Assembly: GCA_030145305.1 (NCBI GenBank)
Contig: JAQYVX010000015.1
Location: 1 to 36,898, forward strand
Length of the DNA stretch: 36,898 nt
Direction: 5' to 3'
DNA from: Halarcobacter sp.
GTDB lineage: Bacteria > Campylobacterota > Campylobacteria > Campylobacterales > Arcobacteraceae
In this document: piece by piece, positions 22,930-31,846 of the stretch
Position numbering within the stretch: the first letter of the stretch is position 1
Layout: each line of letters starts with the position of its first letter
Program-made: the position numbers and the translations under genes
Notes under the pieces: generated by a model
What the model saw: the letters and a program-made list of their open reading frames with translations, nothing else
What the model was told of the DNA's origin: nothing
Databases searched by the model: none

Positions 22930-24903
22930 TTATAATTTCTTTAATTTTTCAATCTCATCACGAAGTCTAATTGCTTCTTCAAAATGTAAATCTTTTGCTG
23001 CTTTTTTCATTTGTTGATTTAATTCTATTAACATTTTTTTACGTTCACTTGCTGGCATTTTTTCTATTTTATTTTTTTTCCAAGCCAAATCATCGTACTC
23101 TTCAAGTTTTAAACTTTCATCCAAAGTTCTTTTTGTAGACGTAGGAGTAATTCCATGTTCTTTATTATGAGTTTCTTGAATTGCTCTTCTTTTATTTGTT
23201 AAATCAATAGCATATTGCATGGAATCAGTGATTCGTTTTGCATATAAGATTACTCTTCCATTTTCATTTCTAGCAGCTCTTCCCATTGTTTGGACAAGGG
23301 AAGTCTTACTTCTTAAAAAACCTTCTTTATCTGCATCTAATATAGCTACAAGTGAGGTTTCTGGAATATCTAAACCTTCTCTTAAAAGATTGATTCCAAC
23401 AAGAACATCAAATACGCCAAGCCTAAGTTCCCTTATTATATGGTTTCTTTGAATTGCATCAATATCACTATGCATATATTTTACTTTCATTCCTAAATCT
23501 GCATAATAAGAAGTAAGTTCTTCAGCCATTTTTTTAGTAAGCACTGTAACTAATACTCTTTCTTTTTTTGCTACAGTCTTTTTTATTTCATCGTGTAATT
23601 TTTCAACTTGAAATTCTGAATTTACTATTTCAATAGTAGGATCAAGAAGTCCTGTTGGCCGTATAACTTGCCTTGCTACAACTGCACTTTTTTCTATTTC
23701 CAAAGGAGCAGGTGTTGCACTTACAAAAAGATAATGTGGAGATTTTGTTATAAATTCGTCAAACATTAAAGGTCTATTATCCAAAGCACTTGGAAGTCTA
23801 AATCCATAATCAACTAAAACCTCTTTTCTAGATCTATCAGCTGCGTGCATTCCTCTAAACTGAGGTAAAGACACATGTGACTCATCAACAATAAGTAAAA
23901 AATCTTTTCCTATTTGTTCAAAATAATTCATCATAGAATAAGGAGTCTCTCCAGGTTTTAATCCAGTTAAATGTCGTGCATAGTTTTCAATTCCTTTACA
24001 CATTCCTGTTCCTTCTATCATCTCCAAATCAAACTCAACTCTTTGTTTTAATCTTTGATATTCAACTCTTCTATCTTCTTTTTCATAATATTTTAATCTA
24101 TCATCAAGCTCTTCTTCTATTTGTTTAACAGCTCGCCCTAAATTTTCACTTGTAACAACAAAAGGATTAACAGAATAAATAATAACTTCATCTACTTCTT
24201 TATGTTTTTCATTTGTTAGATATTCATGTTTTGTAATCGATTCAACTTCATCACCAAAAAATTCAACTCTAATAAATTCTTCCTCATAATACGCAGGAAA
24301 AATATCTATTACATCTCCATTTACTCTAAAATCAGCTCTATCAAAAAAGTTATCATTTCTTTTATAACCCATTTCTACAAGTTTCAATAAAAGTTCTCTT
24401 TGAGAATATTCAAAGCCAACTTCTATTCTTTGAACCATTGCTTTATATTCAGAAGGATTTCCTAAACCATAATTAGCAGATACAGAAGCAATTACAATAA
24501 CATCATCAAAAGATAGGAGTGATGCTGTTGTACTTAATCTTAATCTTTCAAGCTCGCTATTTATTGAAGAATCTTTTTCTATAAATAAATCAGTTCTAGG
24601 GATATAAGCTTCAGGTTGATAATAATCATAATATGAAATAAAATATTCAACATGATTGTTTGGGAAAAACTGCCTAAACTCAGAATACAATTGCGCTGCA
24701 AGAGTTTTATTATGAGTCATAATAAGAGTTGGCATTTGAGTTTTTTCAATAACTTTTGCCATAGTGTAAGTCTTACCAGAGCCTGTAACACCTTCTAATG
24801 TTGTATATTTATTCCCATTTAATATGGAATCACTAATTGCTTTAATTGCAGTTGGTTGGTCTCCTGCTGGAGAATATTCACTTTTTATTTTAAATTTTGC
24901 CAT
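22930..24903 (-). CDS. uvrB: Excinuclease ABC subunit B
   Basis: UvrB is the damage-verifying helicase-like subunit of nucleotide excision repair. The 657 residues show Walker A ([13 protein letters not shown]), the beta-hairpin ([12 protein letters not shown]), VDESH for Walker B, helicase motifs [20 protein letters not shown] and [12 protein letters not shown], and a C-terminal UVR domain ([20 protein letters not shown]) that contacts UvrC. Length is normal. The ATG agrees with the family N-terminus, yet no ribosome binding site precedes it, and the promoter -10 is only seven bases upstream, so the mRNA may be leaderless. Confidence 0.97.
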
Positions 24904-24910
24904 GAAAAAG

Positions 24911-24916
24911 ATTATA
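24911..24916 (-). promoter_or_regulatory. Extended -10 promoter of uvrB
   Basis: On the minus strand CTGATATAATCTTTTTCATG places a perfect TATAAT with a TGn extension seven bases from the uvrB ATG, so transcription would begin at or next to the start codon. No LexA-type box was noticed in the rest of this 162-base gap. Confidence 0.65.
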
Positions 24917-25065
24917 TCAGATTAATATAAATGCTTTAATAAATATTTTAGTTAATTTTTTGAGTATTTTATGAACATAAATAACTGTATACTAAATTAT
25001 ATTATCTATTAAAATCTTATAAAAGTTTAATTACAATATTATGTTTAAAATATTAGGGAAAATCA

Positions 25066-27402
25066 ATGCATGCCAATATAAATTTTATGATTAGCTCAAA
25101 AAAATTAAATGAAAGCATAAATGAAAAAAGAATAATTATTATTGATGTAAGAAGTATTGAGGAATATTCTAAAGGACATATCATCAATGCAATTAATATT
25201 CCTGAAATATTTACATACTTACCAGAAGGTCTTACAACCCCTACAGAAAAAGAAGATTTTATTAATTTTTATAAAGATATTTTTTCAAAAGCAGGTGTAG
25301 GTTCAAATGATACAGTAGTATTTTATGAAAATAGATTCACATTAATGTCTCCAAGAGGATTAATTATTTTAAAATATTTGGGACATAATGAAGAAAATAT
25401 AAAAGTCTTAGATGGAGGGTACTATACTTGGTGCAAAAATAATTTTGAAACGACTACTACCTTTATACAAAATAATCCAAAGGACTTTATAGTCAATATT
25501 AATGAAGATTTTTTTGTTGATTACAATGAAATGAAAGTTATTATTAAAGATAGTTCTATAGTTACACTTGACGTAAGAGACAAAGATGAATGGATAGGTA
25601 TTAGTTCTTCGCCTTATGGAATTAATTATGCACCAAAAAAAGGAAGAATTCCTAATGCTATATGGATAGAGTGGTATGAGTTTATAACTAATGATATGCT
25701 AAGTGTAAGGTCATTAGAAAATATACAATTAGCACTTGATAAAAAGGCAATAAAAGAAGATGATGATATTGTATTATATTGTTTTAAAGGGGCTAGAATT
25801 GCAAATACTTACATCGCACTTAGAAAATTAGGCTATAAAAATATAAGAATATATTTTGCAGGATGGAATGAATGGTGTAGAAAAGAAGATGCTCCTATAA
25901 TAAATGAAGTAGAACATAGTGATAATTTAATTTTACAAGAAAATATAATATTAAAAAATAAATTAGATGAATTAAATTTAAAACAAGCAAATTTAATAGA
26001 CTTTTCAAAATATAACAATCAAGCAATATTTGCTTTTAATAGAGAAGGAGAAATTTGTTCAGCTAATCAAGCAAAGAAAGAACACTTACCACATATTACA
26101 AAAATCAAAGATATATTACCTTCATTTAAAAGAAAAGATATATACAATATGATTGATAATAATCAAGAAAAAGCCCTGACTATTACAGCTATGGATAGAT
26201 ATTATTCTTTACAATTAAGAGGATCAAGAGATTCAAATAAAATACTAGTTTATAGTTTCGATACTACTGAAATAAATCATTTAAATAATTCTTTAGATAT
26301 AAAAATACAAGAAATAGAACGAAGTGAAAAAATATTTAGAACATTGTTTGAAGTTGCTCCTATTTTTATAGATTCATTTGATAAAAATGGTAAATGTGTT
26401 CTATGGAATAAAGAGTGTGAAAAAGTATTTGGTTGGACAATTGAAGAGATTAATAAATCAACTAATTCTTTAGAGCTATTTTATCCAGAAGTTGAAATGC
26501 AAAAAAAAGCTATAGATACAATAACAAATGAAGCAGAAAAAATATTTAGAGTTTGGCATCCTTTAAATAAAAAAGGTGAAAAATTAACCACTATGTGGGC
26601 ACATATTTATCTTTCAAATGGGGAAACAATTAATGTAGGCTATGATTTAACAAAAAATAAACAAAATGAGAAATTATTATTTGAACAATCTAAAATGGCA
26701 TCCTTAGGTGAAATGATAGGAAATATAGCACATCAGTGGAGACAACCTTTATCTGTTATATCAACTGCTGCAACAGGCATGAAAATGCAAAAAGAGTATA
26801 ACAATTTAGAAGATATTGATATTGATAATATTTGTGATTTAATAAATAAAAATGCACAATATTTATCAAAAACAATAGATGATTTTAGGAATTTTATAAA
26901 AGGGAATAGAGAAAAAACTATTTTTAATTTAAAAGATAACATACATAGTTTTCTTCAATTAGTTGAAGGAAGTATAAAAGACAATAATATTAAAGTATTA
27001 TTAACTTTAGACGAAAAGATAACAATAGATGGCTATGAAAATGAATTAGCTCAATGCTTTATTAATATATTTAAAAATGCAAAAGATGCTTTAATAAATA
27101 TAAAAAATGAAGATGAAAAAATGATATTTATATCTACAATAGATAAAAAAGATAAAGCAATTATAAAAATAAGAGATAATGCTTTAGGAATAAAAGAAAA
27201 GATTTTACCAAAAATATTTGAACCATATTTTACAACAAAACACCAAAGTCAAGGAACAGGATTAGGTCTTCATATGACATATAATCTAATAGTTGATGGA
27301 ATGAACGGGACAATTCATGCTAATAATGTAAATTATGAATATGAATATAAAAATTATTCTGGGGTAGAATTTACAATAATAATACCTAAATCTTATTCTT
27401 AA
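25066..27402 (+). CDS. Tandem rhodanese-PAS-histidine kinase fusion
   Basis: A 778-residue protein with no membrane segment. Residues about 10-130 are a rhodanese fold without catalytic Cys (VVFYENRF at the loop). Residues about 146-275 are a second rhodanese with an intact active-site loop (YCFKGARI, C239), the arrangement of thiosulfate or mercaptopyruvate sulfurtransferases. A short coiled coil (about 285-312) leads to a divergent PAS-like region (about 313-400) and a clearer PAS domain (about 419-530, APIFIDSFDKNGKCVLWNKE). The kinase has IAHQWRQPL (phospho-acceptor H556), the N-box FKNAKDA (N671), RDNALGI (D704), EPYFTTK and GTGLGLHM. AGGGAA (25055-25060) supports the start. No response regulator adjoins. 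It probably senses sulfane sulfur or a sulfur donor in the cytosol; this is inference. Confidence 0.87.
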   Translation: MHANINFMISSKKLNESINEKRIIIIDVRSIEEYSKGHIINAINIPEIFTYLPEGLTTPTEKEDFINFYKDIFSKAGVGSNDTVVFYENRFTLMSPRGLIILKYLGHNEENIKVLDGGYYTWCKNNFETTTTFIQNNPKDFIVNINEDFFVDYNEMKVIIKDSSIVTLDVRDKDEWIGISSSPYGINYAPKKGRIPNAIWIEWYEFITNDMLSVRSLENIQLALDKKAIKEDDDIVLYCFKGARIANTYIALRKLGYKNIRIYFAGWNEWCRKEDAPIINEVEHSDNLILQENIILKNKLDELNLKQANLIDFSKYNNQAIFAFNREGEICSANQAKKEHLPHITKIKDILPSFKRKDIYNMIDNNQEKALTITAMDRYYSLQLRGSRDSNKILVYSFDTTEINHLNNSLDIKIQEIERSEKIFRTLFEVAPIFIDSFDKNGKCVLWNKECEKVFGWTIEEINKSTNSLELFYPEVEMQKKAIDTITNEAEKIFRVWHPLNKKGEKLTTMWAHIYLSNGETINVGYDLTKNKQNEKLLFEQSKMASLGEMIGNIAHQWRQPLSVISTAATGMKMQKEYNNLEDIDIDNICDLINKNAQYLSKTIDDFRNFIKGNREKTIFNLKDNIHSFLQLVEGSIKDNNIKVLLTLDEKITIDGYENELAQCFINIFKNAKDALINIKNEDEKMIFISTIDKKDKAIIKIRDNALGIKEKILPKIFEPYFTTKHQSQGTGLGLHMTYNLIVDGMNGTIHANNVNYEYEYKNYSGVEFTIIIPKSYS

Positions 27403-30943: not shown

Positions 30944-31846
30944 ATGAGTGGTATTAATAGTGTTGAGCAAATGACACAAGGTCATTTAAGAAACGTGCAA
31001 CAATTAGCTGTATTTTATACTGGTCATAATAATATTTATGCAATCAATATTGCAAAAGTTAAAGCATTTATTATAACTGAAGAAGTAACAATTAATGATA
31101 CACCTACAAATACACCAGTAATTGCTGGAATTGCGACAATTAGAGGGGAACCTATCACATTAATTAATCTTGATGCATGGTTAGGACTTCCTACTATGAA
31201 GACATCAGAATATAAATTAATAATTTACTGTGAATTTAATCATAAAAAAGTAGGTTTTTTAATAAAAGATATGTTGGATATTGTTGAAAAAACAACTGAC
31301 GAATTAAGACATTCAGAAGAAACAAATTCAAAAATAACTTACACAACTTATGTAAAAGTTCATAATAAAGATGAATTATGTACAGTTTTTAACGCAGAAC
31401 AACTTTTAAAAGATTTAGGCTGGGTTGAAGATGGGGAAGATATTTTAAATAAATATATTGAAGAACCATTTAAGACAAATAAAATAGTACTTGCGGCTGA
31501 AGATTCAGGAGTTGCTAGAGAAATTTTAAGTAAGTTCTTTCACAAAGCAGAAATTAATTTTGAAATGTTTAATAATGGAGCTCTACTTTTACAAAGAGTA
31601 GAAGAATTAGGTGGTGATAATATTGCTCTTATTATTACAGATATTGAAATGCCTGAAACAGATGGATTCCAAGTTGCTTCTTATATTAAAACTAGTAGTA
31701 ATTTAGCTCATATTCCTGTTATTATTAATTCATCTATGACAACAGATGCTGTAAAAAATAAAATGAATAGAATAGGTATTGATGGATTTATAGGTAAAAC
31801 TGATATTAAAGCACTTTATACTACAGTAAAACAATTTTTATCATAA
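30944..31846 (+). CDS. cheV: Chemotaxis coupling protein CheV
   Basis: CheV joins a CheW-like coupling domain to a phosphorylatable receiver and links chemoreceptors to CheA. Residues about 15-165 form the CheW domain (LAVFYTGHNNIYAINI, GIATIRGEPITLINLDAWLG). Residues about 180-300 form the receiver: acidic pair in AAEDSGVAR, phospho-acceptor D233 in IITDIEMPETDGF, Ser/Thr switch in INSSMT, and Lys in GKTDI. Length is typical. No other che gene is adjacent; stand-alone cheV genes are common in Campylobacterota. Confidence 0.94.
   Translation: MSGINSVEQMTQGHLRNVQQLAVFYTGHNNIYAINIAKVKAFIITEEVTINDTPTNTPVIAGIATIRGEPITLINLDAWLGLPTMKTSEYKLIIYCEFNHKKVGFLIKDMLDIVEKTTDELRHSEETNSKITYTTYVKVHNKDELCTVFNAEQLLKDLGWVEDGEDILNKYIEEPFKTNKIVLAAEDSGVAREILSKFFHKAEINFEMFNNGALLLQRVEELGGDNIALIITDIEMPETDGFQVASYIKTSSNLAHIPVIINSSMTTDAVKNKMNRIGIDGFIGKTDIKALYTTVKQFLS

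Follow-up and report, generated by a model that had tools for sequence, protein, structure and literature searches.

Known sulfur sensors and the rhodanese-kinase protein

Sulfane-sulfur sensing in bacteria is known mainly from regulators with reactive cysteines, and SqrR is one such thiol-based sensor. In YfiBNR-type mechanisms, YfiR acts with YfiN, for which it serves as the periplasmic partner. Here we describe a gene in a 36,898-nucleotide (nt) stretch of DNA from Halarcobacter sp. (contig JAQYVX010000015.1, the whole stretch being referred to as the window), whose product joins two rhodanese domains to a PAS-histidine kinase. In the sections of the cited papers available to us, among the closest described sensors are CstR and YrkD, which are thiol-based sulfane-sulfur sensors and of which CstR uses a cysteine pair to turn the per- or polysulfide state into a change (PMC9918477). 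The input proposed for the window protein is similar, a per- or polysulfide on a pair of cysteines, but CstR and YrkD are transcription regulators, and the available part of that paper describes no joining of a sulfurtransferase to a kinase or cyclase for them. The same part presents NreBC of B. licheniformis as a PAS sensor kinase that responds to sulfide, its PAS domain being reported to sense H2S, possibly by heme (PMC9918477); like the window protein as proposed, it is a PAS-kinase for sulfur species, but no rhodanese is described there in its sensor. TtrS and ThsS, sensor kinases for tetrathionate and thiosulfate, respond to sulfur anions through a periplasmic domain that is PhnD-like and not a rhodanese, as far as the accessible text goes (PMC5408782). 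Among the matches listed from the open-access literature, no title or abstract beginning described a sensor that unites a rhodanese with a kinase or cyclase, nor a rhodanese-receptor gene pair, and the word rhodanese occurs 0 times in the main text, so far as it was available, of the Arcobacter butzleri genome paper (PMC2147049).

We regard as evenly balanced between acceptance and doubt the reading that the window protein is a soluble sensor kinase with a captured two-domain sulfurtransferase as its input. The evidence that carries it is the recurrence of the first ~403 residues, comprising the rhodanese pair, a linker and a PAS-like domain, as one block in five of 104 genomes of the family (59–62% identity over the block). 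The whole block was matched at E ≤ 3.5e-203 in the window genome, in G434 and in three genomes of one other genus (G446, G351 and G449), the bearers thus falling in three genera. The output is a kinase in two bearers, namely the window protein and a 651-residue protein of G434 (L090:8905-10860) in which module and kinase are joined with no extra PAS. In the three others (L038, L039 and L089) it is PAS-GGDEF-EAL, in proteins of 979 residues; public records give L038 as Poseidonibacter lekithochrous A1R12 and L039 as an uncultured Campylobacterales bacterium. Identity to the window protein is 57–64% in rhodanese 1, 72–76% in rhodanese 2, 55–67% in the linker and 52–59% in the PAS-like domain, and drops to 11–26% in the 27 residues after position 403. 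As the same block is joined to two unrelated kinds of output, which is our best evidence, its role as the sensory input is well supported by these comparisons. This output swap strengthens the sensor idea of an earlier note on this DNA, made from the sequence alone, which had taken the rhodanese pair as the kinase's input. The parts of the gene, in window coordinates, are:

25066..27402, + strand: whole gene, 778 residues with an ATG start, encoding a sensor kinase of the order tandem rhodanese, helical linker, PAS-like, PAS, HisKA, HATPase_c
25087..25440, + strand: rhodanese domain 1 (residues ~8-125), without a catalytic cysteine (Pfam and alignment)
25516..25914, + strand: rhodanese domain 2 (residues ~151-283), best-conserved part of the module, with 72–76% identity to four relatives
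25780..25797, + strand: predicted catalytic loop C239-F-K-G-A-R244, invariant in five of five fusions (alignment)
25876..25878, + strand: C271, the second invariant cysteine, serine in four of four aligned stand-alone relatives (alignment)
25915..26013, + strand: predicted helical linker (residues ~284-316), conserved along with the module (models and alignment)
26014..26274, + strand: PAS-like domain (residues ~317-403), end of the shared block (models and alignment; no Pfam match)
26335..26517, + strand: second PAS (Pfam, residues 424-484), absent in the shorter fused kinase of G434
26704..26898, + strand: HisKA with H556 (Pfam)
27037..27390, + strand: HATPase_c with N671 and D704 (Pfam)

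The domain matches of the window protein are far beyond chance. They include Rhodanese (PF00581, E = 4.3e-34, in two stretches), PAS at residues 424-484 (E = 5e-5, 23.7 bits against a cut-off of 22.6) and, both above their cut-offs, HisKA at 547-611 (E = 1e-6) and HATPase_c at 658-775 (E = 1.5e-14). By its key residues, with H556 as the phospho-accepting histidine, N671 in the N box and D704 as the G1 aspartate, the protein can be classed as a sensor histidine kinase of the HisKA plus HATPase_c type. The earlier note had placed these three residues and C239 where we find them, and its fusion of a tandem rhodanese with a PAS-histidine kinase is borne out. It had also called the alanine of the G1 box (DNALGI) a small deviation; the fused relative of L090 has DNAGGI and a kinase in L039 has DNAKGI, and an alanine here is not unusual for this kinase group.

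Residues 8-282 align with the solved two-domain sulfurtransferase 8k55, CFKGAR pairing with its YCRIGER loop. Structure models were used for fold assignment and for the helical linker, not for distances. A low-confidence model matches tandem sulfurtransferases over ~280 residues, with target-normalised template-modelling (TM) scores of 0.62–0.73 among the matches listed, and two models place a helix in the linker at residues 288-306 or 288-308. Structure prediction had been proposed as a check, and the coiled coil claimed earlier corresponds to this predicted helical segment of two low-confidence models. The claim of more than one PAS-like domain was upheld by Pfam for the second; for the first (~317-403), which has no Pfam match, the models give a PAS-like pattern of secondary structure (predicted local distance difference test, pLDDT, of 67–89 for the block, with poor overall confidence). 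This first domain has weak homology to part of proteins of ~360–390 residues. The copy of these in the window genome is an HD-domain protein (L092:5525-6628), which has, besides the related domain, a weak YgaP-like transmembrane match; YgaP itself is described, in the part of the source at hand, as a rhodanese-containing sulfurtransferase of the membrane (PMC4730233).

Conserved cysteines, origin of the module and the proposed signal

The rhodanese pair has the make-up of a tandem rhodanese, with a predicted catalytic cysteine in the C-terminal domain (C239, within CFKGAR) and none in the N-terminal one. The loop of domain 1 (YENRFTLMSPRG) contains no cysteine in the alignment, and on this ground domain 1 can be called inactive, as had been proposed. 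Both CFKGAR and C271 are invariant in five of five fusions, and no cysteine of the block other than C239 and C271 shows such invariance. Rhodanese 2 is the most constrained part, with 82 of 133 positions invariant in the five proteins, compared with 58/118 in rhodanese 1, 16/33 in the linker and 25/87 in the PAS-like domain. Among the groups compared, C271 is confined to the sensor lineage.

Plasmid records gave 135 matches to the rhodanese pair, of which 30 were listed and four relatives used; among the matches listed, Alphaproteobacteria, Betaproteobacteria and Nostoc contribute stand-alone sulfurtransferases, so that the nearest free relatives found belong to other phyla than the fusions. 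The four used, from Pseudosulfitobacter (L157), Rhodobacteraceae SC52 (L160), Paraburkholderia (L158) and Nostoc (L159), are 35–38% identical to the pair. Like the fusions they have two rhodanese domains, the CFKGA/SR loop and the SSSPY and WIEWY/WLEWH segments, but they lack linker, PAS and output domains, carry serine in place of C271 (4/4), and have cysteines at two sites without one in the fusions, the QSCR of domain 1 and DFCPRKGR. On a simple hydrophobicity scale they show no obvious signal peptide, and for this reason we take them to be cytosolic. With the Pseudosulfitobacter enzyme as query, nothing better than 2.6e-29 was found in 398 genomes of the order except in G000 and G351, hence no close free homologue was seen in this draw. 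In Rhodobacterales, the CFKGAR sulfurtransferase genes of L157 and L160 are clustered on plasmids with genes for an ABC transporter, OsmC and an acyl-CoA dehydrogenase-like protein (Pfam for L157), an arrangement that looks like an organosulfur pathway.

In a 59-row tree, the five fusions and the four stand-alone relatives form one clade (support 100/97), and a second lineage of Campylobacterales tandem rhodaneses, which is encoded beside receptor genes and described below, forms its own group (93/95) apart from the fusions. The grouping of fusions with stand-alone enzymes is favoured by the loop and the flanking segments that they have in common, but some doubt attaches to it. A first tree had put the fusions beside another long branch (the L136 group), with a long-branch warning; it was built without L118 and L128 (short or incomplete starts) and with L091 added, and the second tree was also made without L136, L151, L104, L107, L100, L147, L143, L150 and L123 and with four rows added. 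An origin of the module from the exported-type rhodaneses of Campylobacterales was considered and found unsupported once the plasmid stand-alone relatives had entered the tree.

In a free sulfurtransferase, the catalytic cysteine accepts sulfur from a donor, and the resulting persulfide persists until its sulfur passes to an acceptor. In the sensor, a cytosolic sulfane-sulfur donor (thiosulfate, polysulfide or a low-molecular-weight persulfide) would load C239 as a persulfide, and the sensing step would be the first half-reaction of the free enzyme; with this half-reaction kept, the loaded fraction of C239 would report the supply of sulfane sulfur. The loaded or discharged C239, possibly via a bond or sulfur transfer with C271, would then shift the contact between rhodanese pair and helical linker, C271 acting as the partner that turns loading into conformational change, much as in the cysteine pair of CstR. 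The PAS-like domain would relay this shift to the output, altering kinase activity at H556 or, for the Poseidonibacter proteins, the turnover of cyclic di-GMP (c-di-GMP). A persulfide on C239 as the sensed state, as suggested in the earlier note, is plausible on the sequence evidence.

Other uses of the module have to be weighed against this. Rhodanese folds are known in non-catalytic roles, and the fold could bind an anion (thiosulfate, thiocyanate or arsenate) or a partner protein without turnover, with occupancy as the signal. Such altered specificity would predict the variety of loops seen in the exported lineage, often acidic (CDGGAE, CQDGAD) and also of CxIG[RK] type; in the fusions, however, the complete loop together with SSSPY and WIEWY/WLEWH is strongly conserved and common to stand-alone sulfurtransferases, and we consider binding or docking unlikely, though still deserving of attention. 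We view with a shade more scepticism a thiol-redox sensor in which a C239-C271 disulfide forms under oxidant stress and oxidation, not sulfane sulfur, is the signal. The two invariant cysteines, one of them particular to the sensors among the groups compared, are what such a switch would use, and in G434 a gene for an MsrA-thioredoxin-MsrB fusion, for methionine sulfoxide repair, follows the fused gene (L090:10941-12134). This neighbour was seen at one locus only, however, and an invariant CFKGAR in its entirety is needless for a plain redox switch. The protein might also be a bifunctional enzyme, an active sulfurtransferase tethered to the kinase for localisation or co-regulation without controlling it, as the retained catalytic residues and the annotation of several free homologues as sulfurtransferases would allow; that the block travels as a unit, with linker and PAS-like domain, to two signalling outputs is not what tethering alone predicts, and makes this quite improbable. 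A functionless chance product, through a lost stop codon in one strain or an assembly join, would accord with the lack of the fusion in all 15 other congeneric genomes searched (where the strongest hits that cover most of the rhodanese pair are stand-alone proteins of 27–34% identity), but it is already refuted by the relatives and has virtually no probability left, as the block is conserved in five genomes of three genera at ~60% identity, with continuous frames and the same block end.

Several observations count against the reading of the window protein as a sensor kinase with a sulfurtransferase input. The two structure models are of poor quality (mean pLDDT 53 and 54), and the block is rare: beyond the five of 104 family genomes, carriers in draws of 398 order genomes and 397 phylum genomes were only G000 and G351, i.e. 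two in each draw. The two kinase cores (window and G434) are not resolved as sisters in a tree, a single origin of the kinase output being neither shown nor excluded, and the four stand-alone rows of the 59-row tree were flagged for unlike amino-acid make-up, with long joining branches. Finally, no genes of known sulfur oxidation or reduction were found among the nine neighbours scanned. That relatives plug the same block into a different signalling machine points to a sulfur-transfer enzyme being used by these bacteria to gauge sulfur. If true, kinases and c-di-GMP enzymes with a sulfurtransferase for their input would bring in a further principle, that of a catalytic intermediate read as a signal. 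The same module with two outputs, and the nearest free enzymes as comparison, make the sensor idea directly testable.

Apparently exported rhodaneses encoded beside membrane receptors

The second tandem-rhodanese lineage of Campylobacterales is apparently exported and encoded directly upstream of genes for YfiN-like membrane kinases or c-di-GMP enzymes. The 60 loci examined were chosen by score, with two added from the family; the locus of the window genome itself was left out, as were L033-L037, which are weak or partial hits. A kinase or GGDEF/EAL gene follows directly 3' on the same strand in 37 of the 60 (L094-L114, L116-L126, L131-L133, L139 and L140), i.e. in 35 of the 40 higher-scoring loci and two of the next 20, and in one more of the 40 (L128/L154) the contig ends inside the receptor gene that follows, which is of this type as well. 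As a control in these 60 loci, the other neighbours on the same strand and no more than 150 nt away included 1/131 such genes, this one belonging to the receptors of the set and having an overlapping open reading frame (ORF) before it, and other ORFs 0/230. The gap between rhodanese and receptor genes ranged from -68 to 149 nt (median 6). Among 12 further family hits, ten are followed by a kinase or GGDEF/EAL gene, and the receptor that follows in L173, alike in type, has an HD output (L168-L178, 11 of 12); L179, at 25% identity, is the sole exception, with no signalling gene downstream. Many of these rows are close relatives, and the counts are not independent events. The 37 pairs cover eight families of the order.

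By BLAST, the 37 downstream genes comprise 16 kinases and 21 proteins with GGDEF and/or EAL. Pfam gave HisKA plus HATPase_c in 16 and GGDEF plus EAL in 21 of 37 receptors scanned, the latter set consisting of 35 pair receptors with those of L093 and L091 and without the cut ends L123 and L125. Output type switches within the group, the starred branches of the first tree forcing at least three changes for the GGDEF label and at least two for the kinase label. The 17 rhodanese rows of the 59-row tree without a signalling neighbour sit outside the gene-pair group; read by eye, L136 and L149 adjoin molybdopterin oxidoreductase-like genes and L135 adjoins a YeeE/YedE-like gene. The N-termini of the gene-pair rhodaneses are strongly hydrophobic in 35 of 37 pairs (simple scale, ≥ 2.0) and on that scale alone look like signal peptides; the five fusions score 0.62–2.04, of which L090 alone would pass.

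The NCBIfam model HK_near_YfiR_like matches the N-termini of all 12 receptors of one scan (E up to 0.001) and all eight of another (E up to 0.01), with the printed scores under the curated cut-off, and DgcN/YfiN matches 11 of the 12. Where printed, YfiN-type matches run near the full model length, yet at 21.5 to 69.2 bits against a curated cut-off of 194, and other membrane-kinase models also match some receptors weakly (e.g. 8/12). CHASE8 was tried as the receptor domain and gave weak matches only, in one of 37 receptors (E = 0.0014) and in the cut receptor L154 (E = 7e-5); the YfiR-associated model was preferred because it fits more receptors. Searches of PDB sequences with receptor N-termini returned nothing, or weak matches at E > 0.4. 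The gene pairs, and not the window protein, may resemble YfiBNR, with YfiN-type receptor matches under the cut-off and a small, apparently exported protein encoded just upstream. They differ from it in that this upstream protein is a tandem rhodanese and not YfiR, whose model is absent from the NCBIfam families listed for the two gene-pair proteins scanned; the window protein has no membrane receptor.

The window genome holds a rhodanese of this gene-pair type on contig C65 (L093:5897-6765), with one in-frame TAA between its domains, which may reflect decay or a sequencing error, and an open GGDEF-EAL gene downstream. In L101, L104 and L110, from at least three congeneric genomes, a gene for a receiver-domain protein (read by eye) immediately precedes the rhodanese and GGDEF-EAL genes.

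The gene pairs, with kinase, GGDEF-EAL and, once, HD outputs, are an independent parallel that we count in favour of the sensor reading of the window protein. A broader reading, to which we lean slightly less than evenly, is that Campylobacterales turned tandem sulfurtransferases into sulfur sensors for phosphorelay and c-di-GMP on at least two occasions, once as the cytosolic fusion and once as a periplasmic, exported rhodanese in the place of YfiR, upstream of a membrane receptor with kinase, GGDEF-EAL or HD output. The persulfide intermediate would be the signal in both, and the loop would tune which sulfur species is read. The window protein may then be a kinase with a new kind of input that, with the gene pairs, points to a rhodanese-based class of sulfur sensing, and pairs in eight families would supply a candidate stimulus for many Campylobacterales receptors.

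Genomic surroundings of the fused genes

The window genome (3.03 Mb, 77 contigs) has ~50 other places that match the kinase part. The nine neighbouring ORFs scanned encode UvrB, an HhH-GPD DNA glycosylase, a metallophosphoesterase, a semialdehyde dehydrogenase, a GreA-type factor, a ThiF-family protein, a CheW-receiver protein and two products without clear family. No response regulator adjoins the fused gene among them, in line with the earlier description of an orphan kinase, and the nearest receiver domain is that of the CheW-receiver protein (30944-31846). Some ThiF relatives act in sulfur-carrier pathways, and the ThiF-family gene lies 2.8 kb downstream. A sulfur-oxidising lifestyle had been suggested; SoxB is matched in five of five bearers, but this co-occurrence is uninformative because 81 of 104 family genomes match SoxB.

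The fused gene is divergent from uvrB (window 22930-25066). In G434 (L090:1-4864), the gene divergent from uvrB encodes a 1127-residue multi-PAS kinase, with the fused gene 4 kb beyond. This kinase is 49% identical to the window protein over residues 415-774, which raised the idea that the window gene may have arisen via recombination at the uvrB locus.

Beside two of the rhodanese-GGDEF-EAL genes lie, at L039:2540-5931 and L089:3946-7316, genes for a PhnD-like binding protein (PF12974) and then a sensor kinase, which in L039 contains PAS and dCache_3. As TtrS and ThsS sense sulfur anions via a PhnD-like domain, according to the available part of PMC5408782, this locus may be a sulfur-signalling island.

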